Positions 37,616 through 64,000 of a DNA stretch of 64,000 bases are shown here, piece after piece. The notes beneath the pieces were generated by a model. It saw only the letters and a program-made list of their open reading frames with translations. It had not been told where the DNA came from and searched no databases. Source of the stretch: Comamonas sp. Y33R10-2 (GTDB lineage Bacteria; Pseudomonadota; Gammaproteobacteria; Burkholderiales; Burkholderiaceae_C); assembly GCF_019355935.1 (NCBI RefSeq), contig NZ_CP079925.1, positions 3,472,001-3,536,000 of the forward strand, read 5' to 3'. Every line of letters starts with the position of its first letter. Position 1 is the stretch's first letter. A program made the translations under genes and the position numbers.

Positions 37616-38539
37616 ATGCAGAAATTCACGAGAACGTCGCAGGTGTCTTCAGGGCGGCGCACATTGCTGCAATGCATACCTGCCAGCGTGCTGGGGCTGT
37701 TGTCGTCTTCTGTGCTGGCGGCATGGGGCGCCGAAGCTGCGGATAAAGCCTACCCCCAGCGCATGGCGGTCAGCGATACACCGCAACTCGCCTCGGTCAG
37801 CAATTTTCGGGATCTGGCAGGAGCCAGCGATGCCAAGGCGTACCAGACCGTTGAGGGCCTATGGCTGCAGCGGGGCGTGATTTATCGATCCAATGAAATG
37901 CGGCCCTTGCCGCAAGATCAGGCGGCCTTGGCGGCGCTGGGAGTTTCCTGGGTCCATGACTTGCGCACGCCGGGTGAAATTGCGCGCAAGCCTGACCTGT
38001 TGCCGCATGGCGCTCAATATGTGCAAAACAATATTCTGGGCCTGAAAAATATCGATATCGAGGACTTCAGGGTGGCCTCGTCGCAAGAAGCGGAGTCGCT
38101 GATGATCCGGGGGATTTAGGACAACGTGAACTCCGAACCCATCCGAAAACAGTTCAGTCTGCTGCTGCAGAGCTTGGCCAGCAATGCTGGTGCGCAGGTC
38201 TTTCATTGCTCTGCCGGCAAGGACCGGACAGGCTGGGCGGCGGCGGTACTGCTGCTGGTGCTTGGGGTTCCAGAGTCGGTAGTGATTCAGGATTACGCAC
38301 TGTCCAATACCTATCTACAGGCCAGCATGGAAAAACAACACGCCGCGTTGGTCAAGCTGTACGGCCAGAAGCTGGCAGATGCATTGGTACCCACACTGGG
38401 CGTGAGCCCTGTTTTCATGGAGGCAGGCCTTCAGGCCATGAAGGCGAAGTATGGCGATGTAAACGGCTATGTGACGCAAGGGCTGGCGTTGTCACCGGCC
38501 GATGTACAGGCGCTGAAGGGCAGACTTTTGCGCACTTGA
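37616..38539 (+). pseudogene. Exported tyrosine-phosphatase-like protein (Y_phosphatase3), split by an in-frame amber codon
   Basis: The first part (37616-38119) has AGGGAG before the ATG, a Tat-like SGRRTLLQ signal region, and the family opening NFRDLAG with the YRSNEMRPL segment. A TAG at 38117-38119 ends it. The same frame continues immediately (38120-38539) with SEPIRKQFSLLL and the complete active site FHCSAGKDRTG. The reading frame is unchanged, so one base substitution explains it; Tyr (TAC or TAT) to TAG fits the context well. Without readthrough the product lacks its catalytic Cys and Arg. A sequencing error is the main alternative. Confidence 0.8.
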
Positions 38540-41147: not shown

Positions 41148-41198
41148 GTGAGTAACGAACTCGATCCATCAACGACCGATTTAAGAGGAATTTCACAG

Positions 41199-41606
41199 AT
41201 GACAGCATCTAGCGCGCCCTTGCGCGTCTTGGTGGTGGATGACAGCAACACCATCCGCCGCAGCGCTGAAATTTTCCTCAAGCAAGGTGGCTATGAAGTT
41301 TTATTGGCTGACGATGGCTTTGATGCCTTGTCGAAGGTCAACGACTATCAGCCCCAAATTATTTTTTGCGACATTCTGATGCCCAAGCTCGATGGCTATC
41401 AGACCTGCGCCATCATCAAGCGCAATGCGCGCTTTACCAATACGCCGGTGGTGATGCTTTCGTCCAAAGACGGTGTCTTCGATAAGGCTCGAGGCCGCAT
41501 GGTGGGTTGTCAAGACTATCTGACCAAACCGTTTACTAAAGATCAATTGCTGCAAACCGTTCAACAGTTCGGCTTACAGGCGGCAGATGTGGGGGTTGAG
41601 GAATGA
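41199..41606 (+). CDS. pilG: Twitching-motility response regulator PilG
   Basis: A 135-residue single-domain CheY-like regulator, the same length as Pseudomonas aeruginosa PilG. The acidic pocket is VVDD, the phosphoacceptor Asp is in FCDILMPKLDG, and Lys is in YLTKPF. The start at 41199 has AGAGGAA ahead; a GTG at 41148 abutting the rubredoxin stop would add 17 residues. Phosphorylated by the ChpA-type kinase, PilG promotes pilus extension. It overlaps pilH by ATGA. Confidence 0.93.
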   Translation: MTASSAPLRVLVVDDSNTIRRSAEIFLKQGGYEVLLADDGFDALSKVNDYQPQIIFCDILMPKLDGYQTCAIIKRNARFTNTPVVMLSSKDGVFDKARGRMVGCQDYLTKPFTKDQLLQTVQQFGLQAADVGVEE

Positions 41607-41965
41607 CAATTCAAAAAGTACTGATCGTTGACGACTCAAAGACAGAGCTGATGGCTTTGACGGATATTTTGCAAAAGCAGGGTCTGCTGGTGCGTACTGC
41701 TGAGAATGGCGAAGACGCGATGAAGCGCTTGGCCGAAGAAAAGCCAGACCTGATCCTCATGGATGTGGTGATGCCTGGCCAAAATGGCTTTCAGCTGACT
41801 CGCGCTATCTCGCGTGATCCTTTGTATGCCGATGTGCCCATCATCATGTGCACCAGCAAAAATCAAGAAACAGATCGAGTTTGGGGTATGCGACAAGGCG
41901 CACGCGGCTACATCACCAAGCCGGTGGATGCAGCTGAGCTGCAAGCCAAGATCGCAGCTCTGTAA
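41603..41965 (+). CDS. pilH: Twitching-motility response regulator PilH
   Basis: A 120-residue stand-alone receiver. The acidic pair is in IVDDSKTEL, the phosphoacceptor Asp in LMDVVMPGQNGF, and the conserved Lys in YITKPVD. In the Pil-Chp system PilH balances PilG, favouring retraction or serving as phosphate sink. It is coupled to pilG by ATGA and followed 14 bp later by pilI. Confidence 0.94.
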   Translation: MTIQKVLIVDDSKTELMALTDILQKQGLLVRTAENGEDAMKRLAEEKPDLILMDVVMPGQNGFQLTRAISRDPLYADVPIIMCTSKNQETDRVWGMRQGARGYITKPVDAAELQAKIAAL

Positions 41966-41979
41966 AGGTCGCGCTGCTT

Positions 41980-42507
41980 ATGGCCAACCGCGAAGCCCTT
42001 AGAGACCTCCAATCCCGACTGGCCGGGCGCCTGCAAGCAGCGCGCACTGAAGGCATTAGTGTCGCCGCTTGGCTGGCTGTTCAAGCCGGCGGCCGGGACT
42101 ATTTGCTGCCGCTCAATCAAGCGGGTGAAATTTTCCCTTGGAGCGGCGTTCAGCCCGTTCCTTACACACAGACTTGGTTTCTGGGCATCGCAAATTTGCG
42201 CGGCGCCTTGATGGGAGTTGTGGACCTGGCTCAGTTACTGGGTCATGGCAGTTCGCGAAATGAGCAAGAGCTCATGGATTGCAGCTTGCTAGCCTTCAAT
42301 CCTGCGCTGGAAGTTAATGCCGCCTTGCTGGTGGATCATTTGCTGGGCCTGCGCGCCGCAGATGCGTTTTCTAAAACTGAGGCCGCGCCAGAGCACTCCC
42401 CGAGCTTCTTCGGTGCAGTGCATATTGATGCGAGTGGCCGCCGTTGGCAGGAGTTGAAGTTGCAGCACCTGTCTCAAACCGCTAAATTTTTGAGCATTCG
42501 TGCTTAA
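41980..42507 (+). CDS. pilI: Chemotaxis coupling protein PilI (CheW-like)
   Basis: A 175-residue CheW-domain protein. GGRDYLLPLNQAGEIFPW and the later LGIANLRGALMGVVDLAQLLG match the two beta-barrel subdomains, the second block including the receptor/kinase contact. It links PilJ to the ChpA kinase at the cell pole. The position between pilH and pilJ is the standard one. Confidence 0.93.
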   Translation: MANREALRDLQSRLAGRLQAARTEGISVAAWLAVQAGGRDYLLPLNQAGEIFPWSGVQPVPYTQTWFLGIANLRGALMGVVDLAQLLGHGSSRNEQELMDCSLLAFNPALEVNAALLVDHLLGLRAADAFSKTEAAPEHSPSFFGAVHIDASGRRWQELKLQHLSQTAKFLSIRA

Positions 42508-42526
42508 GGTTTCTGGATTCAGCACT

Positions 42527-44752
42527 ATGTCTTTTGCACAAAAACTAAATCAATTGTTCCGACGCAACCCCGTTGCAGATGCTGTCCATGCCGATACCGT
42601 TGTACAAGATATGTATGACGGTGCGCTCAACAGTGTGCAAGGTGCGCCTTCCATTACAGGCGTAGAAGACATAGATCGGGAGTACGAGCTGGTTAATTTG
42701 CCGATTCTTGGCACCGCAACGGTGACCAAGCATCAGCGGACTTTGTTTGCTCTGCTCGGTGGCTCGGTACTGGTACTGGTGGTGACTGCGGCTTGGATGC
42801 TGCGCGATGCCAGCAACTCCAATCAACAGCTTGCAGCTACAGGCCAAGCACTGATGCAGTCGCAGCGTCTGGCGAAGTCGGTTTCTCTGGCAATGACGGG
42901 TGCAGCGCCCGCTTTTGATGACGTGAAGAACAGCTCGGATGTGCTGGCTCGTAGCGTGCGCGCTTTGGCGACGGGTGACTCTGCATTGGGCGTGAATGCG
43001 CTTAGCGCCAGCTTGCAAGGCGATGTCAGCAACGTCAGCACGTTGATGGAGCGTGCAGAAAAAAGCGCTAGTTTGATTTTGGGACAGCAAAAGACACTGA
43101 CACAGGTGGGTGAAGCGCTGCGCGCCATTAACCGCCAGTCTGCTGACTTGCTGGAAACTGCAGAAACGATTTCTTCGCTGAAACTGCAGCAAGGCTCTGG
43201 CCCGGCAGAAATTGCCGCTGCTGGTCAGCTGGTGATGTTGACCCAGCGTATTGGTAAATCGGCCAACGAATTCCAGACTCTCGAGGGTGTGAGCCCTGAA
43301 GCCGTGTTTTTGCTGGGTAAGGATTTGAATTCCTTCAAGGAAATCTCGGAAGGTCTGCTCAACGGTAGCAGCGAGATGCGCTTGGCCGCTTCGCGTGACC
43401 CGCAAGTGCGTGAGCAACTCGAGACACTGATTAAGCAGTACGACGAAACACGTACTCAGGCCAGCGCGATTTTGGGTAACTTGCAAGGCTTGGTGTCGGC
43501 GCGTGAAGCACAGACCGGCATTAACAATGATAGCGAGCCACTGCGCCAGCAGCTGGAGAAACTGCAGGCTGATTTGCAAGGTGTTGGCGGCTCTAACATG
43601 CTGCATTTGGTCGTGCTGGCTCTGGCCATTTTGACCGCGGTGTTAAGCGGTATCGGTATTTCTCGCGTTCAGCTGCTGGACAGCCGAGCACGCCAGAAAG
43701 ACGCGGAAGTTCACCAGGCTGATGCCCGCTCGCAGGAGCAGGAGGCCAAGCGCATCAACGACGCCAATCAGGCCGCTATTTTGCGTTTGATGAACGAGTT
43801 GCAGTCTGTCGCTGAGGGCGATTTGACTCAAGAAGCCACGGTGACTGAAGACATCACCGGCGCGATTGCTGACTCGGTGAACTACACCGTTGAAGAGTTG
43901 CGCGTGCTGGTAGGTTCGGTGCAGAACACGGTGACCCGTGTGGCGCAAACCACTGAACAAGTGGATATGACATCGACCGAGCTGCTGGCTGCATCGAACG
44001 AGCAGCTGCACGAGATTCGTGAAACCGGTAAGTCCATTTTGGATATGGCTGGCCGTATTAACAACGTCTCTACACAGGCGCAGGAATCGGCTTTGGTGGC
44101 GCGTCAATCGCTGCAAGCTGCTGACTCGGGCCTGAAGGCTGTGCAAAACGCCATCGGCGGTATGAACTCGATTCGTGACCAGATTCAGGATACGTCTAAG
44201 CGAATCAAACGTCTGGGTGAATCGTCGCAAGAGATTGGCGAAATTACCGAACTGATTTCTGACATTACCGAACAGACCAACGTGCTGGCGCTAAATGCTG
44301 CTATTCAGGCTGCGTCCGCGGGTGAAGCCGGTCGAGGCTTCTCGGTGGTTGCGGAAGAAGTGCAGCGCTTGGCGGAACGCTCTGCCGATGCGACGCGTCA
44401 GATTGCGGCGCTCGTGAAGGCGATTCAGACCGATACCCAAGATGCGGTGGCCGCTATGGAGCGCTCTACCCAGGGTGTGGTGGAGGGTGCGCGACTGTCT
44501 GACTCTGCAGGTACCGCACTGACTGAAATTGATAGCGTGTCTCGCCGACTGGCTGAGCTGATTGAGCAAATTTCTAACGCTACATCGCGTGAAGCCAATA
44601 TGGCCAACGGCGTGGCGGAAAACATTCAGCACATTTTTGCGGTGACCGAGCAGACCGGTGAAGGTACTCGTACAACTGCCCAGCAGGTGCGCGAGCTCTC
44701 ACACATGGCTGAAGAATTACGTCAGTCCGTTTCTCGATTCAAGATTGTCTGA
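42527..44752 (+). CDS. pilJ: Methyl-accepting chemotaxis protein PilJ
   Basis: A 741-residue transducer. TM1 lies near residues 66-89 and TM2 near 357-380, enclosing a helical PilJ-type sensing domain. A HAMP-like linker follows (SRAR to about 480), then the coiled-coil signalling domain with the hairpin tip EQTNVLALNAAIQAASAGEA. It senses surface contact or pilus state and sets ChpA activity. No pilK methyltransferase gene follows; the next gene is the kinase. The start at 42527 is preferred over 42500, which overlaps the end of pilI. Confidence 0.94.
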   Translation: MSFAQKLNQLFRRNPVADAVHADTVVQDMYDGALNSVQGAPSITGVEDIDREYELVNLPILGTATVTKHQRTLFALLGGSVLVLVVTAAWMLRDASNSNQQLAATGQALMQSQRLAKSVSLAMTGAAPAFDDVKNSSDVLARSVRALATGDSALGVNALSASLQGDVSNVSTLMERAEKSASLILGQQKTLTQVGEALRAINRQSADLLETAETISSLKLQQGSGPAEIAAAGQLVMLTQRIGKSANEFQTLEGVSPEAVFLLGKDLNSFKEISEGLLNGSSEMRLAASRDPQVREQLETLIKQYDETRTQASAILGNLQGLVSAREAQTGINNDSEPLRQQLEKLQADLQGVGGSNMLHLVVLALAILTAVLSGIGISRVQLLDSRARQKDAEVHQADARSQEQEAKRINDANQAAILRLMNELQSVAEGDLTQEATVTEDITGAIADSVNYTVEELRVLVGSVQNTVTRVAQTTEQVDMTSTELLAASNEQLHEIRETGKSILDMAGRINNVSTQAQESALVARQSLQAADSGLKAVQNAIGGMNSIRDQIQDTSKRIKRLGESSQEIGEITELISDITEQTNVLALNAAIQAASAGEAGRGFSVVAEEVQRLAERSADATRQIAALVKAIQTDTQDAVAAMERSTQGVVEGARLSDSAGTALTEIDSVSRRLAELIEQISNATSREANMANGVAENIQHIFAVTEQTGEGTRTTAQQVRELSHMAEELRQSVSRFKIV

Positions 44753-44811
44753 TTTGACTCGCTTCCCCTCTCATAAAAATGCACGACCCTCAGTGGTTAA
44801 GGAACTAGAGC

Positions 44812-47800
44812 ATGTCAGTGGTTGACGACTCGCCAACACGTGCAGCTATGTCTGCACCTGCGGAGCAGGACCTGGGCCCATTGGCTTGGGTGCTTGATGA
44901 AGTGCGAAAGTCGCTGGAATCCGCGACTAAGGCAGTAAGCCGCTTCATGCGCGATGCCGATGCTGCCCGTTTGTCGGATCTGGAAGAGCTGGATACATCG
45001 GCGCTGCGCATTGCGCGCCAACAACTGCATCAGGCTTGTGGTGCACTAGAGATGGTGGGGGTCACCGCCCCCGCGCAGGTCATGCGGAGCATGGAAGCGG
45101 CGGTTAACCGTTTCCTTCAGCAGCCTGAGACTTGCACGCAAGAAGCAGCCAGTACGCTGGAGCGCACGCACTTTGCGTTGATGGAGTTTTTAGAGGCGGT
45201 GTTGGCCGGTCAGCAAGTCTCTGCCGTCGCATTGTTTCCTCAGTATCGTCAGACTCAGATACTGGCGGGCAACGATAAGTCTCACCCTGCCGATTTATGG
45301 CCTGCCGAGCGCAGAGCCCGTGAGCCGCGCTGGACAGGGCCTATGCCCGAGCCATTGGCCTATGGGCCACAGGCCCGCGCCATGCTCGATAGCGTGGTGC
45401 TGCGCATGGTCAAAAGTGATGACCGCGAAGCCGCTGCCCAGATGCGTGAGATATGTCTGAGCTTTGCGGCAGGTCTGCCTGAAGACGTCGCTTCACGTAG
45501 TTTCTGGAAAATTGCAGCCGCCTTTTTTGAAGGATTGGCTCGTGGACTCGTTACGGCGGACATTTACGTCAAGCGCATGGCTTCGCGTGTGCTTATGCAA
45601 TATGCATCCATGGCCAAGGGCGAGAGCCTGCCGCCAGCACGTTTGCTGCAAGACTTGATGTTCTTTTGCGCGCAGGCCAAGCCGCGTGAGCAGGCGGGCG
45701 AGTCCTTGCAGGCTGTGCATGAAGCCTATTCCATGGAATTGATGCCCTTGGTGGATTACAACGTGGCCCGTTTTGGCCGCTTTGATCCATCGGTGCTGGT
45801 TATGGCCCGCAAGCGCATTGCTGCGGCTGCAGAAACCTGGTCAGCTTTGGCTGGCGGTGATCGCAGCAAGATTAAATCGATGACTGAGCAGTTCGCTCAT
45901 GTCTCGGAGTCGCTGGTCAAATTGCAGCCAGCCAGCCATGGCCTTGCTCGCGCACTGATTCGTGTGGCTGAAACCGTGGAAAGCATTGGAGAGCCGCCAC
46001 CTGCTGAGTTGGCTATGGAAGTAGCAACCGCTGTGCTGTATCTGCAAGCGAGCTTCATGACGGCGAGCCAGAATGATGAAGTGCATTCTGCTCAGTCCAG
46101 CGTGCTGGTGCACCGCCTTGATGCAGCGTTGAATGGTGCTGCACCTGAGCCGCTCGAAGTGTGGATGGAGGAGCTTTATCGCCAAGCCAGCGACCAGCAG
46201 ACTATGGGGTCTGTGGTGGGCGAGTTGCGGGTGACTTTGGGCGAGTCTGAAAAACAGCTTGACTTGTTTTTCCGCAATCCTACGGACACCACTGTGCTGA
46301 ACTCTGTGCCCGGCCAGATGTCGCAAATGCGCGGTGTGTTGCTGGTGCTGGGCTTTGACCAAGCGGCGATGGCCATGCAGCGCATGCGCGAGACCGTTGA
46401 GCACTTGATGCTCGGTGAGTTGAGTTTTGAAAGCTACCCCCAAGTTTTTGAAAAACTGGGTAGCACTCTGGGTGCCATGGGCTTCCTCATCGACATGCTC
46501 AGCTATCAGCGCCATATGGCACGCAAGCTGTTTGTTTATGACGAAGAAAAGCAGGAACTGCGCATCGCCATGGGCCATAGTCGCAGCCGTGGACCTGAGG
46601 CCTTCCGTCCCACCGTGGACATTCCTACGGATATTGTTCAGGCGCCTGAGTTCAAGGCAGCTCCTCCAGTTGTCGCTGCAGCAGTCACAGCCTTTGCTGC
46701 GACCGTTGCAGCCAATGCTGCGCCTACTACTTCTGTCAGCTGGGAGCATGCTGATCAGCCATTGATGGCTGCGCCCACGCTTGCGGGTGCAGTGTCCCCT
46801 GCGGTTGAAAATGCTGCTTTTGATGCGCTCTTGAGCTTGCCCGAGGTTGCGCCGGCCTCAGCGCATGACGCTGTAATTAAGCGTGCATCGGACTTTGAAG
46901 AAGAATCCTCGCCTTGGTCTGTAACGCAGCCGGGTGCCTTGCCTGAGTTCTCCATGGAGACCGTACCTGCGCAGCAGGATGCGACCTCTGTTGGCTCTGA
47001 TACATTGGCTGATGCCATGGCCCAGGTGTTCAAGGACATGCATGTGGTGAAGCCTTCAGAGGCTGCAGATGCAGAGTTGGCTGCCGGTTTGAATTTTTCA
47101 GGTGATCTGGAGTTGGTGGCTGAGCCCGCAGCAGGCCCAGCACCAAGCCCCGCTTCTGTACCCGATCCTGTCCCTGCCCATGCTCCTTCCTTGCAGGCTC
47201 CCGTTCCTGCTAATGTTGCTCAGGCCATAGAGCTGAGCGCCGAGGATCTCGATGGCGATGAAGAGTTGCTGTCTATCTTCTTGGAAGAAGCTCGTGAAGT
47301 TGTCGATAACGGCCTGAATGCCTTGAAGGTTCTGGCTTATGAGTCAGGAAACCTGAGCGAGCAAACCACGCTGCGACGTGCTTTCCATACGCTCAAGGGT
47401 AGCTCCCGTATGGTGGGCTTGGATGAGTTTGGTGAAGCTGGCTGGTCCATGGAGCAAATGCTCAATGCATGGTTGGCAGAGCAGCAGCCTATGCCCGCGC
47501 CCATGCAGCTTTTGGCGCAGGATTCGCTCAAGGCCTTTGCGGCTTGGGCGCAGGATATTGAAAACCGTCAGGCAGACAACTGGACCGCCACACCTTTCAG
47601 AGCCGCGGCAGATGCCATGCGCTTGACAGGCGAGCGTGCCGAAATTGCTTTGGTTCCACGTCGCGGTCAGCGTGCTGCAGATCTTTTGGATACCGTTCAG
47701 GACATTCCCGAACGGATCGAGCCAGAGCCGGTCATGCCTGAACTCGACTTCCCAGAGGACGAGTCATATCTGGCTTATAACGCGGACCTATTGGAAGATC

Positions 47801-50800
47801 CTGAAGAGGAAGCGCCAGACTTTGCCATGACGGTGATTGACATCCCGGATGATCTGCTCGAGCAGATGGAGGCCATGGATGCAGCGGCGGCTGAGAAGTT
47901 GTACGGGGCTCCTGCTGAGCAGTTGAGCGATTTGGACTTTTCTGCTTTTGAAGCTGCCATGCACGAAAGCGAGCAGGCTGCGATTGAGGCACAAACAGCG
48001 ACAGACCCAGCACCAGAGGTTGTGACGCAGGCCGCGACAGAGCCGGCCTTAGATCCTGCATTGGATGCTGCATTAGAGCCAGTGCTTGACTTAGACGCTG
48101 AGTTTGAAAAATTGTTGGCCGAGGCGCCGCAGGCTGCATTGCCTGAGGTGGCTCAGCCTGAAGTGACGCCTCAAGAGATAGAGGCTTTGCAAGCCTTGCT
48201 GGACGGCGCTCCTGTTGCATCTGTGGCGTCCGTGGAGACTGTAGCCTCTGAGGCTTCAGTAGTGCCTGAGCCAGAAATCGCTGCAGTCGAGGCGATGGCC
48301 CAAGAGACTTCAGGTGATGAAGATGGTTACCGCAATATTGATGGCTTGCGCATTAGCGCGCCGCTTTATAGCGTGTATCTCAATGAGGCCGATGAATGGT
48401 CTGAACGTCTGGGGACAGTGCTTCAGAACTGGTCGCAAGAGCCTGCTGGCGCGATTCCAGATGACGCGATCGCTTTGGCCCATTCACTGGCTGGAAGCTC
48501 AGGCACAGTGGGCTTTAAGGCTTTGTCAGAGTTGGCACGCCTGCTTGAGCATACGCTGATGCACCTGCAAGCTCAGGGCTTTGCTAGCGAGTTGCAGATT
48601 CTGCAATGTGTGACGGCTTCTGATGAAATACGCCGCCTGCTGCATCAGTTTGCGGCTGGCTTCATCAAGGATACTGTGCCCGCCGTTGAAGATGGCTTGC
48701 GCGAAATTCTGAGCACCTCCATTGATGCAAGCGTCTCTGCAGCCACTGCGGTGGTAGATGATGAGTTGGTGGACTTGGCCGATATCGATTGGCCATCGGC
48801 TAATGTAGTCGAGCTGCCTGCTGATCCCAAGGACTTGCCACTGGACTTCGCTGCCGAGCAAGAGCGGGCTGCACAGCCTCAGCCCGACGATTTGACGCCT
48901 GCATTGATTGAAGAATCCGCAGCTGATGACTTTGCTGCTGAGGCGGTATTAGCTGATCAATTCTCCGCTGATCAATTTTCTCCAGATCAATTGCTAGATG
49001 TGGCGCCAGGCACTGTTCAGGCACCTTATTCCATGATGCCTGTGGGCGGTAGTGTGGAGCATGAAGCCGACTTGCAGCGCCGCATCGATGAAGCGATTGC
49101 ACTGGCCGTGCATGCGGGTGCTGATGAAGACGACATCGATGTGCTTGATCAGGTGGACCTCGACCTGTTCCCCATTTTTGAAGAAGAAGCCATCGAGCTG
49201 TTGCCCAAGTTGGGTGCTGCGCTGCGTAGCTGGCATAGCCGTCCCACGCAGGATCAAGCTCGCAACGAAGTTTTGCGCGCTCTGCACACTATCAAGGGTA
49301 GCGCTCGTTTGGCAGGCGCCATGCGCATGGGTGAGATGGCCCACCGCCTGGAATCTGCCGTTGAGCGCATTGACCAAGAGCGCCCTTTAGCCGAATCCAT
49401 TGAGCCATTGTTGGCCAGCTTTGACGCGATTCAAACCAGCTTTGACGTGTTGCGCATGGCTGGCGAGCAAGAGCCTGAGCCGCCTCTGGATCAGATCGAA
49501 GGCGGCTTGGCGCAAGCGCCTTTGCACCTGAGCGTTGCCGCAACTGAAAGCGTGAGAGCTGAGGCTTTGGAGGCTGAGGCCGCCGAGCCACGCGCTGCGA
49601 TTCAGATGCCCGCTCCAGTAGTGGCTCGTGCTTCGTCGCAGCAGACCGTTCGTGTGCGCGCTCAGTTGCTGGACCGCCTGATTTCTCAGACCGGCGAAGT
49701 GCTGATTGCCCGCTCGCGTGTAGATGCACGCCTGATGCAGGCGCGCACGGCACTCGGTGACTTGAACGGTAATTTGGAGCGTTTGCGCTCTCAATTGCGA
49801 GACATTGAAGTGCAGGCCGAAAGCCAGATGCAGTCTCGCCTGGCTTTGTCTAAAGACACGGCTGCTGGCTTTGATCCGCTGGAGTTTGACCGCTTTACCC
49901 GCGTGCAAGAACTCACGCGGATGATGGCCGAGTCGGTCAATGACGTGGCGACGGTGCAGCGCAATTTGCAGCGTGATTTGACCGCGGCTGAAGATGATTT
50001 GGTGGCTCAAGGCCGTCAAGCGCGTGATTTGCAACGTGATTTGCTGCGCACGCGCATGGTGGAGTTCGACTCGTTTGCCGAACGCCTGTACGCCGTGGTG
50101 CGCCAGACCTCCAAAGAGTTGGGCAAGCAAGTTCGCCTGAATATTTTGGGCGGCACTATCGAAATGGACCGCGGCATGCTCGAACGCATGATGCCGGCTT
50201 TCGAGCACATGCTGCGTAACTGCGTGGCCCACGGTGTTGAGCTGCCAGAAAAGCGCTTGGAGCTGGGCAAACCTGCCGTTGGCACCATTGAAATCGTACT
50301 GAGCCATGAGCGCAATGACGTGGTGCTGTCGGTTGAGGACGATGGCGCAGGCTTGAATTTGGAGCGCATTCGCGATAAGGCCATCAGCCTTAAGCTGTGG
50401 ACGGATGAGCGGCATATGACGCTTGAGGACGCGGGTCGTCTGATCTTTGAGCCGGGCTTTAGCACGGCCACTGAAGTGACAGGCGTTTCCGGTCGCGGCA
50501 TTGGTATGGACGTGGTGCGCTCTGAAGTGAACGCGCTGGGCGGCCGTATCGAAACCCATACGGAGCCTAACCGCGGTAGCGCCTTCCGTCTGGTGCTGCC
50601 GCTGACGACAGCGGTGACGCAGGTCGTCATGCTGCGCATTGGTTCTGCTTTCATGGGCGTGCCTGCCAACCTGATTGAAATCGTGCGCCGCGTGCCAGTG
50701 GATGCTTTGGAAGAGAGCTACCGCAAGCACGAGTTCCACGATGGCATTGAAGTGATGCCTTTCTTCTGGGCGGGGGCGCTGTGGCAAACCTCGCTGCACA

Positions 50801-51564
50801 GCGACGAACACGTGGGCCGCACACGCCCCGTGGTCATTGTGCGAAGCGCTTCGCAGCGCATTGCTTTGCACGTGGATGAAGTGCTGGGCAACCAAGAAGT
50901 GGTGATCAAGAACTTAGGCCCACAGCTCTCGCGTCTGCCCGGCTTGACCGGCATGTCCGTGCTGCCTTCAGGTGCGGTCGTGCAAATCTATAACCCGGTG
51001 GCTCTGGCTAACGTGTACGGTGAAAACGTGCGCGCCATGCTGGCCAAGGCTGAGCTGGATGCCGCCGAAGGTGGGCTGCTGAGCCAAGGCTCTGGTTTGC
51101 TGGGTGCAGAAGCGGTTCAGATCACCGTGCCGCTGGTGCTGGTGGTGGATGACTCTATTACCGTTCGCCGTGTCACTCAGCGTCTGCTGCAGCGAGAAGG
51201 TTACCGCGTTACTTTGGCGGCCGACGGCCTGCAAGCCATTGAGCGCTTGCAAGACGAGCGCCCAACCTTGGTGCTGTCGGACATCGAAATGCCGCGCATG
51301 GATGGCTTTGACTTGCTGCGCAATATTCGCGCAGACCAGAAGTTAGAAGGCCTGCCCGTGGTCATGATCACTTCGCGCATTGCCCAAAAGCACCGTGAAA
51401 TGGCCCGTGACTTGGGCGCCGATCACTATCTGGGCAAGCCTTACTCGGATGAAGAGCTGCTGGGCTTGATTCAGCATTACGCCCTGCAGCGCAGTGGCCC
51501 GGCACCTGAGCGTAATCCGCTAAGCGGCCCTGCTGCGAGTGATTTGGGAGCGGCTGCCGAATAA
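44812..51564 (+). CDS. chpA: Hybrid chemosensory histidine kinase ChpA/PilL with multiple Hpt domains and a C-terminal receiver
   Basis: A 2250-residue CheA-like kinase. I see three Hpt-type modules: His859 in FHTLKGSSRM, His1224 in AHSLAGSSG, and His1492 in LHTIKGSARL. Long Ala/Pro/Glu-rich linkers separate them. A CheA dimerisation helix near 1615 (DRLISQTGEVLIARSR) leads to the ATPase domain, with Asn1803 in the N-box HMLRNCVAHG, the G1 box DDGAGLN, and the G2 box SGRGIGMDVV. A CheW-like domain and a receiver (Asp2113-2114, phosphoacceptor Asp2157) finish it. The second Hpt has LAGSS where the others have the Lys-Gly pair. P. aeruginosa ChpA is of similar size. Confidence 0.93.
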   Translation: MSVVDDSPTRAAMSAPAEQDLGPLAWVLDEVRKSLESATKAVSRFMRDADAARLSDLEELDTSALRIARQQLHQACGALEMVGVTAPAQVMRSMEAAVNRFLQQPETCTQEAASTLERTHFALMEFLEAVLAGQQVSAVALFPQYRQTQILAGNDKSHPADLWPAERRAREPRWTGPMPEPLAYGPQARAMLDSVVLRMVKSDDREAAAQMREICLSFAAGLPEDVASRSFWKIAAAFFEGLARGLVTADIYVKRMASRVLMQYASMAKGESLPPARLLQDLMFFCAQAKPREQAGESLQAVHEAYSMELMPLVDYNVARFGRFDPSVLVMARKRIAAAAETWSALAGGDRSKIKSMTEQFAHVSESLVKLQPASHGLARALIRVAETVESIGEPPPAELAMEVATAVLYLQASFMTASQNDEVHSAQSSVLVHRLDAALNGAAPEPLEVWMEELYRQASDQQTMGSVVGELRVTLGESEKQLDLFFRNPTDTTVLNSVPGQMSQMRGVLLVLGFDQAAMAMQRMRETVEHLMLGELSFESYPQVFEKLGSTLGAMGFLIDMLSYQRHMARKLFVYDEEKQELRIAMGHSRSRGPEAFRPTVDIPTDIVQAPEFKAAPPVVAAAVTAFAATVAANAAPTTSVSWEHADQPLMAAPTLAGAVSPAVENAAFDALLSLPEVAPASAHDAVIKRASDFEEESSPWSVTQPGALPEFSMETVPAQQDATSVGSDTLADAMAQVFKDMHVVKPSEAADAELAAGLNFSGDLELVAEPAAGPAPSPASVPDPVPAHAPSLQAPVPANVAQAIELSAEDLDGDEELLSIFLEEAREVVDNGLNALKVLAYESGNLSEQTTLRRAFHTLKGSSRMVGLDEFGEAGWSMEQMLNAWLAEQQPMPAPMQLLAQDSLKAFAAWAQDIENRQADNWTATPFRAAADAMRLTGERAEIALVPRRGQRAADLLDTVQDIPERIEPEPVMPELDFPEDESYLAYNADLLEDPEEEAPDFAMTVIDIPDDLLEQMEAMDAAAAEKLYGAPAEQLSDLDFSAFEAAMHESEQAAIEAQTATDPAPEVVTQAATEPALDPALDAALEPVLDLDAEFEKLLAEAPQAALPEVAQPEVTPQEIEALQALLDGAPVASVASVETVASEASVVPEPEIAAVEAMAQETSGDEDGYRNIDGLRISAPLYSVYLNEADEWSERLGTVLQNWSQEPAGAIPDDAIALAHSLAGSSGTVGFKALSELARLLEHTLMHLQAQGFASELQILQCVTASDEIRRLLHQFAAGFIKDTVPAVEDGLREILSTSIDASVSAATAVVDDELVDLADIDWPSANVVELPADPKDLPLDFAAEQERAAQPQPDDLTPALIEESAADDFAAEAVLADQFSADQFSPDQLLDVAPGTVQAPYSMMPVGGSVEHEADLQRRIDEAIALAVHAGADEDDIDVLDQVDLDLFPIFEEEAIELLPKLGAALRSWHSRPTQDQARNEVLRALHTIKGSARLAGAMRMGEMAHRLESAVERIDQERPLAESIEPLLASFDAIQTSFDVLRMAGEQEPEPPLDQIEGGLAQAPLHLSVAATESVRAEALEAEAAEPRAAIQMPAPVVARASSQQTVRVRAQLLDRLISQTGEVLIARSRVDARLMQARTALGDLNGNLERLRSQLRDIEVQAESQMQSRLALSKDTAAGFDPLEFDRFTRVQELTRMMAESVNDVATVQRNLQRDLTAAEDDLVAQGRQARDLQRDLLRTRMVEFDSFAERLYAVVRQTSKELGKQVRLNILGGTIEMDRGMLERMMPAFEHMLRNCVAHGVELPEKRLELGKPAVGTIEIVLSHERNDVVLSVEDDGAGLNLERIRDKAISLKLWTDERHMTLEDAGRLIFEPGFSTATEVTGVSGRGIGMDVVRSEVNALGGRIETHTEPNRGSAFRLVLPLTTAVTQVVMLRIGSAFMGVPANLIEIVRRVPVDALEESYRKHEFHDGIEVMPFFWAGALWQTSLHSDEHVGRTRPVVIVRSASQRIALHVDEVLGNQEVVIKNLGPQLSRLPGLTGMSVLPSGAVVQIYNPVALANVYGENVRAMLAKAELDAAEGGLLSQGSGLLGAEAVQITVPLVLVVDDSITVRRVTQRLLQREGYRVTLAADGLQAIERLQDERPTLVLSDIEMPRMDGFDLLRNIRADQKLEGLPVVMITSRIAQKHREMARDLGADHYLGKPYSDEELLGLIQHYALQRSGPAPERNPLSGPAASDLGAAAE

Positions 51565-61569: not shown

Positions 61570-63129
61570 TTGGATCAGCAACATAGCCTGCAGGCTCAAG
61601 GCTTGGGGGCTTCTTATGGCCCGCGCGTTATCTTGGCCGAGGTGGACTTTGTGCTGCCAAAGCATGGCGTGACCGCATTGCTTGGACCGGCTGGCACGGG
61701 TAAGTCCACGTTGCTGCGTACTTTGGCTGGGCTGAATGCGGCCAACCCCCGATTTCGCTGCTGGGGGCAACTGTCTTATGCCCAGCAAGCACTGAATATC
61801 CCGCCAGTTGCGGGTGGCGCGCAGGTTTTGCCGCGACTGGTGCAGCAGCATGCCCGCCTGATGCGCGCCAACACACTAGATGCGCTGATTGAGATGGCAA
61901 GGCGGACTGAGCACCGATCCCCGCTGCAGTGGCGCAACTGGGTAACTGAGCAACTGCAAAGCTATGGGTTTGCCGAGCTGGCGCAGGTTCTGGATAAGCC
62001 AACCATCCAGCTCAGCCGCGTGCAACAACGCGCTGTGACCATTTTGCGTGAAGCATGGGCCAAGCCTGCGCTACTGATGGTGGATGAGCCCACGGCGGAC
62101 TTGGATGGCTACGAGGCTTTTTTGCTGCTGGATGTGCTCAAACAGATTGGTCTGCACAGCAGCGTGCTGCTTGTCACGCACCAGCAGCAGCATGCTCAAG
62201 CGGCAGCGCAGCACATGCTGCTGCTCGCTGGTGGCTGCATTCAAGAGGCAGGCAGCATGGCCGACTTTATGCATCGCCCCAGCAGCGCAGCGGGCCTGCA
62301 ATTTTTGCGCAGCGGCAGTTGCGCCGTACCCATGCCGGGAACGCCTTTGCAAGAACTGGCTGACGATGTTTTTCCGCCACCTCCTTTGCCTGCGGCGGCG
62401 TTGGCTGCCATTGCTGAGTTTGCGCAGCAGCCGGTTGCCGCAGTGACTGAGCTTGTTGCGTTGGCTGATGCCGTGCTCGAATCAGAGTCCGAGCGCGAAG
62501 CTGAGCCTGTGCTCACGAAGCCGGCGCAGCCTGAATTACCTGTTGCAAAAGTTGCAGTTGCAGCATCAGCTGCCGCCTATCAGCCGCGCCCGATCAACTC
62601 CGCCGTGCTAATGGAGATGCAGCCGCTGGTCGCTGCTCAAAATGCGGTTGCAGCCAGTCGTGGGCCCAATGGTTTTGCTTGGCTAGTACCGGGTCGCTTG
62701 GCTGGCACGCCATGGCCGGGCGTGGTGCATGACATGGACGCCGACCTTAAAGCGCTAAGCCGCTGCGGGGTCACCATGCTCATCACGTTGACGGAAAAAG
62801 ACTTTCCGCAAGAGCCTTTGGTGCGTCATGGGCTTAAGAATTTTCACTTACCGGTCTATGACCATGAGCCGCCAACTGTCGCTCAGATACAGATGCTGCT
62901 GGCACGAATGTCAGCGGCTATGCGCCGCGGTGAAGTGTTGGCCGTGCACTGCCTGGCAGGCCTTGGACGTACCGGAACCGTGCTGGCAGCATGGCTGGTG
63001 CGCGAAGGCTTAACCGGCGAAGAGGCGCTGCGCCGAGTGCGCTTGATTGACGGGAAATACGTTCAGTCACAGGCGCAGGAAGCGCTGCTTTATGAATACG
63101 AAAATGCATTGCTGCTGAAGATGGGCTGA
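61570..63129 (+). CDS. ABC-type ATPase domain fused to a dual-specificity phosphatase domain
   Basis: A 519-residue protein if it starts at TTG 61570, which has GAGGGAGA just upstream and begins where ABC folds normally begin; earlier codons reach 61420. Residues 1-230 are an ABC ATPase with Walker A GPAGTGKS (39-46), Walker B LLMVDEPT (Asp172, Glu173) and H-loop His204. The signature is LSRVQ (148-152), not LSGGQ. An Ala/Pro-rich linker fills about 240-380. The C-terminal phosphatase has general acid Asp431 (PVYDHEPP) and active site HCLAGLGRTG (Cys461, Arg467). The ATPase part most resembles PstB-like proteins. No permease is adjacent. The function is unknown. Confidence 0.85.
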   Translation: MDQQHSLQAQGLGASYGPRVILAEVDFVLPKHGVTALLGPAGTGKSTLLRTLAGLNAANPRFRCWGQLSYAQQALNIPPVAGGAQVLPRLVQQHARLMRANTLDALIEMARRTEHRSPLQWRNWVTEQLQSYGFAELAQVLDKPTIQLSRVQQRAVTILREAWAKPALLMVDEPTADLDGYEAFLLLDVLKQIGLHSSVLLVTHQQQHAQAAAQHMLLLAGGCIQEAGSMADFMHRPSSAAGLQFLRSGSCAVPMPGTPLQELADDVFPPPPLPAAALAAIAEFAQQPVAAVTELVALADAVLESESEREAEPVLTKPAQPELPVAKVAVAASAAAYQPRPINSAVLMEMQPLVAAQNAVAASRGPNGFAWLVPGRLAGTPWPGVVHDMDADLKALSRCGVTMLITLTEKDFPQEPLVRHGLKNFHLPVYDHEPPTVAQIQMLLARMSAAMRRGEVLAVHCLAGLGRTGTVLAAWLVREGLTGEEALRRVRLIDGKYVQSQAQEALLYEYENALLLKMG

Positions 63130-63152
63130 TGCTCTAAGTGCCGCGAACAACC

Positions 63153-63240
63153 CCCTTGAGATGTCGTTGCTACGCCTTGTCGTATGCATGTACTGCCTGC
63201 GACTTAACGCCTCGTCTCAAACGCAAACCTTTGGTTGGCT
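63153..63240 (+). repeat. Dispersed intergenic repeat, copy B
   Basis: It matches copy A (33503-33590) in a series of blocks: TCGTTGC, TTGTCGTA, TACTGCCT, CGACT, ACGCCTCGTCT. It lies just after the ATPase-phosphatase gene. Confidence 0.5.
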
Positions 63241-63318
63241 GGGCGGTGTTAGCGGCTCTAAGCGCTTTGGCGTAGCTTACTTTGGCGTTGTTAAATTGAA
63301 ATGAAAGAAGTGAGAAAA

Positions 63319-63723
63319 ATGAGTTTGGATGCTGTTTTGGCGCAGGCCGTGGCCTCTGTTCCTGAATGTTTGGCTGCGGGCTATGTGGATGCTGCCTCGG
63401 GCATGCTGCTGTCGATTCGTACCGTGGATTCCCACCCACGTGAAGTGATTGATCTGGTGGCGGCTGCCACAGGTGATTTGTTCAATGGTCCCAACGTGTC
63501 CCTGATCGAATCCATGTTCAAGCGCTCGCGCGGCATTAGTGATGATGGCCACCACTACTTTCAAGAAATCATCATCAACAGTGACAACCTGATTCACGTC
63601 TTTTTGCGCAGCAAGAATGTGAGCGACTATGTGGCAGTGTTTGTTTGCCGTCGCACGGCTAATCTGGGTATGGCGCTGACCAAGGCGCGCATGGCCATGC
63701 CTGCGATTGAGGCTGCTGTATAA
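63319..63723 (+). CDS. Small Roadblock/LC7-like protein
   Basis: A 134-residue protein with no signal peptide or membrane segment. The pattern, helix VASVPECLAAGYVDAASGMLL followed by alternating strands (IHVFLRSKNVSDYVAVFVCR) and an end helix, suggests the Roadblock/LC7 fold seen in MglB-type regulators. I recognise the general shape, not a named family. Starts at 63301 and 63319 are possible. It follows the ATPase-phosphatase on the same strand and precedes a response regulator. Cross-talk in a signalling pathway is plausible but inferred. Confidence 0.55.
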   Translation: MSLDAVLAQAVASVPECLAAGYVDAASGMLLSIRTVDSHPREVIDLVAAATGDLFNGPNVSLIESMFKRSRGISDDGHHYFQEIIINSDNLIHVFLRSKNVSDYVAVFVCRRTANLGMALTKARMAMPAIEAAV

Positions 63724-63854
63724 CTGCAGTCTCCCCCTGAGGCACTTGCTGTCTTGCTTGCTGTCTCTTGGCTTGAGGGCACGTCAGTTTTTACTGCGTG
63801 CCCTTTGTTTTTGCTTGATTGCATTTGGCTCTGTCGCGACGCTATCCTTGCACC

Positions 63855-64000
63855 ATGCGTTTACTGCTTGTTGAAGATGACTCCATGATTGGTCAAGCCG
63901 TGTTTAGCTTGCTGCGCGGTGATGGCTATGTGGTGGACTGGGTGCAAGATGGCGCTCAGGCGGATACCGCCTTGCGTGATCACCAATACGATTTGGTGCT
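63855..64000 (+). CDS. OmpR-type response regulator, N-terminal part (right-truncated)
   Basis: The first 48 codons of a receiver domain, with the acidic pair in LLVEDDSMIGQAV and the strand before the phosphoacceptor (HQYDLVL). The window ends before the conserved Asp-Pro region. Length and opening (RLLLVEDDSMIG) resemble QseB/TctD-class regulators, usually followed by a sensor kinase. The upstream Roadblock-like gene is on the same strand. Confidence 0.8.
   Translation, partial: MRLLLVEDDSMIGQAVFSLLRGDGYVVDWVQDGAQADTALRDHQYDLV

Follow-up and report, generated by a model that had tools for sequence, protein, structure and literature searches.

What role can an ABC-type ATPase have that is fused to a phosphatase, has no permease gene beside it and is followed by a small Roadblock-like protein, and which of the surrounding genes belong to the same functional unit? 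The question is raised by a locus of Comamonas sp. Y33R10-2 within the stretch of 64,000 nucleotides that was analyzed here (hereinafter, the window; unless a locus is named, positions refer to it, and the fusion gene and its small neighbor are both on the plus strand). The fusion gene (61570..63129) encodes a protein of 519 amino acids and begins with a TTG codon that is preceded by AGGGAG and is found at the same position in close relatives. The preliminary description of the locus maintained that an ABC ATPase domain and a dual-specificity phosphatase (DSP) domain, both with intact motifs, share this 519-residue frame, and proposed a Pfam search as the check; the search returned ABC_tran (54.6 bits, cut-off 25) and DSPc (43.2 bits, cut-off 33.5), as well as PTP-SAK (73.2 bits, cut-off 27), and, together with an alignment of 79 sequences consisting of the window protein and its homologs from 78 loci, confirmed the claim.

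The ABC nucleotide-binding domain (about residues 4-250; 61579..62319), for which PstB is nearest by both profile and fold, contains the Walker A motif GPAGTGKST (61684..61710), with the GP and the terminal GKS present in all 77 sequences that have letters at this place (two of the 79 are gapped), the Walker B motif LLMVDEPTADL (62071..62103), in which the aspartate is present in 79/79 sequences and the glutamate in 77/79, the other two having glycine, and the H-loop histidine H204 (62179..62181), which is found in 74 of the 79 sequences and replaced by aspartate in three and by glutamine in two. The phosphatase domain (about residues 366-517; 62665..63120), in which PTP-SAK matches residues 366-487 and DSPc residues 392-512, has 25xa and 2img as its best solved relatives and encompasses the aspartate D431 (62860..62862), conserved in 78 of the 79 sequences and, judging by the family, likely to be the general acid, as well as the phosphatase loop HCLAGLGRTG (62947..62976), whose HC, G and GRTG are present in all 78 sequences with letters there (one of the 79 is gapped). 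In the window fusion, the Walker A motif, the Walker B motif with the catalytic glutamate, the H-loop and the HCX5RT site are all intact.

What is missing is the ABC signature: at its place (62011..62034), the window protein reads LSRVQQRA instead of LSGGQ. The pattern used, which we take to be the PROSITE ABC signature, matches none of the 79 fusion sequences, that of the window included (two are gapped at the first position; the fusions of loci L180, L181, L182, L184 and L210 are outside this set), and matches all seven of the other ABC loci of the window genome that served as the control set. A looser pattern fits only the fusions of L124 (LSEGE) and L128 (YSAGQ), both linked to a GTPase gene, and does not fit that of L133, which is GTPase-linked as well. 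This loss is a new observation that was absent from the first reading of the window. Given the missing signature, two ABC domains probably do not assemble into the usual ATP sandwich; the loss could mean that hydrolysis is slow or absent, and it suggests that there is room for a partner acting in trans.

The two domains are joined by a stretch that is variable in length. The predicted model of the fusion has very low confidence at residues 318-350 and a pTM of 0.64, so that no domain interface is predicted, and, in related loci, the distance between the matched domains ranges from 82 to 1498 bases. The preliminary description had proposed that ATP binding may gate the phosphatase; these features do not suggest a rigid gate formed by the two domains alone, and the variability of the linker argues for tethering instead. 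In the homolog from locus L135 (6027-8735), some 500 residues, acidic in character and rich in proline, link the ABC domain to the phosphatase domain.

To assess how widespread this architecture is, we examined the best 80 of 112 confirmed loci, which were obtained by a scan of genome contigs with two phosphatase patterns, so phosphatases without the ABC part may be under-represented among them. Both domains are encoded in one frame in 78 of these 80 loci, and the remaining two (L127 and L138) are cut by contig ends; among the 78, one (L069) is frameshifted within the ABC part and two (L103 and L105) are incomplete because they run off their contigs. The loci in this best-80 set come from Comamonas, Delftia, Acidovorax, Hydrogenophaga, Gallionella and Methylotenera, among others, with further representatives in Stenotrophomonas, Frateuria, Acidocella and a Myxococcales MAG. 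A protein search with a threshold of E<=0.001, which did not filter out plain ABC proteins, yielded 1379 matches, and the best 120 of the 1379 carry both the ABC and the phosphatase domains. Thus, the fusion is conserved across its homologs and is not split by frameshifts or stops in most genomes.

The small gene behind the fusion (63319..63723, hereinafter RB) is separated from it by 189 bases, has an additional upstream in-frame start at 63301 and encodes an atypical Roadblock protein of 134 amino acids, the same length as in its relatives. No match was obtained in Pfam at E<=1, in particular to Robl_LC7 (PF03259), or in NCBIfam. By contrast, the AlphaFold model (pLDDT 85.3) has the Roadblock/LC7 structure 3kye, MglC, MglB and LAMTOR as its best Foldseek matches, and its similarity to 3kye (Foldseek E of 7e-8, TM of 0.67/0.73) places the predicted structure in the Roadblock fold. 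The earlier characterization of this neighbor as Roadblock-like is therefore borne out by the predicted structure, whereas the Pfam Roadblock search gave no match. RB is also well conserved, with a mean column identity of 75% (46 sequences), compared to 35% for the fusion (51 sequences, linker included).

Of the 78 loci in the best-80 set that encode both domains in one frame, 72 have RB as a same-strand neighbor of the fusion, downstream in 52 and upstream in 20, with a median gap of 51 bases where the two are adjacent; in L122, RB is present only as a fragment at the contig edge. The six loci that have no RB beside the fusion are two at contig edges (L105 and L123) and four with flanking sequence on both sides (L118, L119, L135 and L136). 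Among the seven genomes in which no RB was seen close to the locus (G450, G451, G452, G446, G066, G454 and G455), four encode it elsewhere, and it was not found anywhere in the other three (G066, G451 and G452). Three loci (L177, L178 and L179, from genomes G121, G018 and G126) carry RB with no fusion beside it; L177 also includes an ABC-type frame of 74.8 bits on the other strand, about 1 kb away. In the phylogenetic tree, the loci with RB in the first position comprise one clade of 19 rows, which indicates that a change of gene order did not part the two genes. Not included in the tree are L127 and L138, whose ABC part is cut off, and five loci with a frameshift, duplication or truncation (L069, L102, L103, L105 and L123); L180 was entered minus its first 44 residues, and the placement of seven long end branches (L182, L180, L118, L041, L139, L042 and L116) is unsure.

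The two genes also co-occur genome by genome. Among 150 genomes of the family, the fusion was detected in 13 (cut-off 1e-30) and RB in 14 (cut-off 1e-6), with both in 12, the fusion only in one and RB only in two; in one of the latter (G086), a divergent fusion was found beside RB (L180), which brings the counts to 13, one and one, respectively (Fisher p of about 1e-16, uncorrected for kinship). Over the order, profile A1 matched mostly ordinary ABC ATPases and was not used for counts. Two side observations pertain to copy number: Curvibacter loci contain two very similar RB genes in tandem (L128:9399-10359, L133:9395-10383), and Xanthomonas massiliensis encodes two fusions (L118:7056-8498 and L210:5907-7058). 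The L118 fusion has glycine in place of the Walker B glutamate and aspartate in place of the H-loop histidine, lies near pilU-type genes and has no RB beside it; the second X. massiliensis locus, L210, includes a fusion, RB and a GTPase, and given its presence, we draw no conclusion from the joint loss of RB and these residues in L118. The small Roadblock-like partner postulated for the fusion is thus substantiated by adjacency that survives a change of gene order and by co-occurrence across genomes, and an unsplit fusion with RB beside it in 72 of 78 loci implies that the two form a module.

The response regulator that follows RB, which the preliminary description had considered as a possible third member, does not share this behavior. 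Cut by the end of the window, its gene is complete in the genome, where a histidine kinase and a GAF-GGDEF protein come after it. HtrA, a response regulator of the window type and the histidine kinase are found together near only 15 of the 78 loci of the best-80 set, all of the Comamonas-Delftia-Acidovorax-Diaphorobacter kind, and were rejected as module members; the receivers near L077, L117, L128, L133, L180 and L184 are different proteins in different places. Neighbors that vary freely between species had been named as the outcome that would speak against the set, and such variation is indeed observed for the response regulator, whereas RB stays in place. The unit is the pair of the fusion and RB, not a trio with the response regulator. 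A ferredoxin-globin gene (family c10; L085:9672-10856, L184:8480-10129) occurs near 14 of the 78 loci and in L184, where the protein also contains FAD and NAD domains, and may encode a redox or gas-sensing partner. Elsewhere in the window (37616-38539, plus strand), a gene for a tyrosine phosphatase of the Y_phosphatase3 type contains one in-frame stop, and both halves match the same Pfam family.

As judged from sequences and predicted models, then, the pair consists of an ABC-type ATPase with intact ATP-binding and catalytic residues, a variable linker, a DSP with an intact site and a conserved neighbor with the predicted Roadblock fold. Roadblock/LC7 proteins are predicted regulators of NTPases, as stated in an excerpt of PMC4316618. 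The reading that we favor, tentatively and with chances that fall somewhat short of even, is that the fusion and RB make up a cytosolic signaling module in which the Roadblock acts on an NTPase and the phosphatase is the output. RB, probably as a dimer, would bind the ABC domain and, where they are present, also the Ras-like GTPase and the canonical Roadblock described below; it would control the nucleotide state of its partner, and this state would decide where, or whether, the phosphatase, the probable output, dephosphorylates its target. Conceivably, the Roadblock may take over part of the trans role of the second ABC domain. A more specific version, which we consider doubtful, is that a dimer of the Roadblock protein stands in for the absent half-site of the signature, binding the ATP-loaded cassette in trans, serving as its activating protein in the way that MglB does for MglA and thereby switching the fused phosphatase.

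An alternative with a distinctly lower, though not negligible, probability puts a GTPase in the center: RB and a canonical Roadblock would be GAPs or other regulators of a Ras-like GTPase, the ABC-DSP protein would be an effector, and any contact between the latter and RB would be indirect. In eight loci (L124, L128, L133, L180, L181, L182, L184 and L210), a Ras-like GTPase is indeed clustered with the fusion and RB, accompanied in all of these except L210, where none was found, by a protein related to the canonical Roadblock, and the GTPase and fusion genes overlap by 4 bases in three (L128, L133 and L181). An alignment of seven of the GTPases showed conservation of the G1 motif and of the PGQ in G3. 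In the midpoint-rooted tree, which does not include L210, the main group comprises 70 rows and contains none of the other seven GTPase loci; L139, L041 and L042, although not accompanied by a GTPase, likewise lie outside it. The root is arbitrary, and several branches outside the main group are long. In one of these clusters (genome G310), a gene for a BLUF blue-light sensor (L182:5342-5767, minus strand) is located between the canonical Roadblock and the GTPase. Among 300 genomes of the order, the GTPase is present in 31, including all seven RB-positive genomes compared to 24 of the 293 RB-negative ones; these counts come from two 300-genome samples that were taken as identical, the listed genomes being in agreement, three of the seven RB-positive genomes belong to one genus, and one (G366) has only a distant RB. 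The window genome itself contains a separate tandem cassette (L189:4744-6934; at about 2.948 Mb of G000:C1) that holds the only GTPase match in this genome and consists of a 263-aa protein with no Pfam match over the cut-off, the Ras-like GTPase, a Robl_LC7 protein and a small Roadblock-like protein. For the 119-aa Roadblock-like protein of this genome, comparison with the RB profile gave a probability of 12.7%.

Against this alternative, the GTPase family was detected at E<=1e-8 in only 18 of the 27 genomes chosen for the presence of the fusion or RB, in one of these (G443) by a match of 42 residues only, and was not found at this threshold in the other nine, of which eight have the fusion and one (G121) has RB alone. 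A role of the GTPase as an obligatory partner was accordingly rejected; it is an associated, not obligatory, part. Where the GTPase is lacking, no NTPase other than the ABC domain is seen in the module, and so RB most likely acts on the ABC domain, in line with the favored reading.

A second alternative concerns the output and gives the module a role in governing type IV pili or twitching, on the model of MglA/MglB in Myxococcus; we regard it as unlikely, to about the same degree as the first, without considering it far-fetched. In 23 of the 78 loci of the best-80 set, pilT/pilU, pilJ-like or chpA-like genes are found within the examined flank; four loci (L089, L094, L103 and L132) were matched by the PilU query, with both pilus ATPase frames of L089 confirmed by profile, and a ChpA-like kinase is encoded directly upstream in L085 and L031. 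About 10 kb upstream of the fusion, the window contains a pilG-H-I-J-chpA-like chemosensory cluster (41148-51564, plus strand) that encodes two receivers, CheW, a PilJ-type receptor and a CheA/ChpA-like kinase of 2250 aa. However, when loci were linked by shared neighbors, with 14 generic neighbor families left out and the pilus loci listed by hand, the 23 pilus loci amounted to one of 17 contexts, with a chance of about 0.19 at an assumed background of 1.2%, and the window genome's own pilT/pilU genes are 361 kb away from the fusion. Moreover, PilT/PilU was not found at E<=1e-60 in five of 30 fusion genomes, all five of the Acidocella clade and with completeness not given, and two of these (G442 and G453; loci L076 and L079) have RB beside the fusion. 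Control of type IV pili was therefore rejected as a universal role; surface or type IV pilus signaling is a candidate output in some lineages.

The possibility that the fusion is the ATPase of an ABC importer whose permease is encoded elsewhere, with the phosphatase added, appears highly improbable. PstB is its nearest relative by profile and fold, as mentioned above, and a permease family (c8) is found within the examined flank in 13 of the 78 loci of the best-80 set; but an ABC-type frame lies on the other side of this permease in nine of the 13, the pair scanned in L106 consists of a BPD_transp_1 permease and an ABC_tran-TOBE ATPase, the signature pattern is missing from all of the aligned fusions, and the initial observation that no permease gene adjoins the fusion holds in the window. 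The least credible proposal, with a very small probability, is a polymorphic toxin for which RB would be the immunity protein, as could be suggested by the database name 'phosphatase domain-containing putative toxin' and the match to Pfam Tc-R-P (66.3 bits), because PTP-SAK outscores Tc-R-P, and both models describe the phosphatase part. The 25 of 28 Pfam families that were listed include no domain for secretion or trafficking, the same architecture recurs in the 78 loci, and the conservation of RB, which greatly exceeds that of the fusion, is not what a rapidly evolving immunity protein would show. We class the pair as a variant of Roadblock/small-GTPase signaling, not as a toxin. Assignment to known anti-phage defense components was rejected as well: the PADLOC matches of the fusion are all confined to the generic ATPase part, within residues 13-218 (the best being mad3, 47.6 bits), and RB has none.

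Comparison with known systems reveals partial similarities. The HCX5RT loop is shared with DUSP23-like and PTP-SAK bacterial DSPs; those are chains of 151-162 residues, whereas here the phosphatase forms the C-terminal region of an ABC protein. MlaF-MlaB and PhnK are ABC ATPases with non-membrane partners that keep transporter or C-P lyase roles; they have a similar ABC fold and likewise work with soluble partner proteins, but the fusion lacks the signature motif and carries a phosphatase. The MglA/MglB/MglC system of Myxococcus and Thermus resembles the pair in that MglB and MglC rank among the top structural matches of RB, a Ras-like GTPase is clustered with RB in eight loci, and pilus genes are often nearby; unlike in that system, RB has no Robl_LC7 match and has the ABC-phosphatase fusion as its constant neighbor, and nine of the 27 genomes examined, as well as the vicinity of RB in the window, lack the GTPase. 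Actinobacterial conservons (Cvn) similarly combine a Roadblock and a small GTPase in one operon, according to an excerpt of PMC4316618; here, in contrast, the only GTPase match of the window genome is at 2.95 Mb and the constant neighbor is the ABC-DSP protein; with the GTPase at that distance, the window does not have the conservon operon that unites a kinase, a Roadblock, a CvnC-type protein and a GTPase. Not all of their defining features having been observed, the pair was assigned neither to the MglA/MglB nor to the conservon family. Among titles and abstract openings of the open-licence literature, no paper on the fusion or the pair was recognized.

From bacteria to the human Ragulator, Roadblock proteins are known to partner with small GTPases. 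In the beta-, gamma- and alphaproteobacteria and the myxobacterial MAG described here, a Roadblock protein is tied to a different NTPase, and the database name 'putative toxin' is called into question, the only support found for it being the name of a phosphatase profile. The pair offers a compact system in which control of ABC ATPases by Roadblock proteins can be examined, and it may connect Ras-like switches to the dephosphorylation of proteins in bacteria. If a Roadblock dimer does take over from the signature half-site, the module would be an ABC switch under Roadblock control that has replaced, or works next to, the Ras-like switch that divergent lineages still encode with it.
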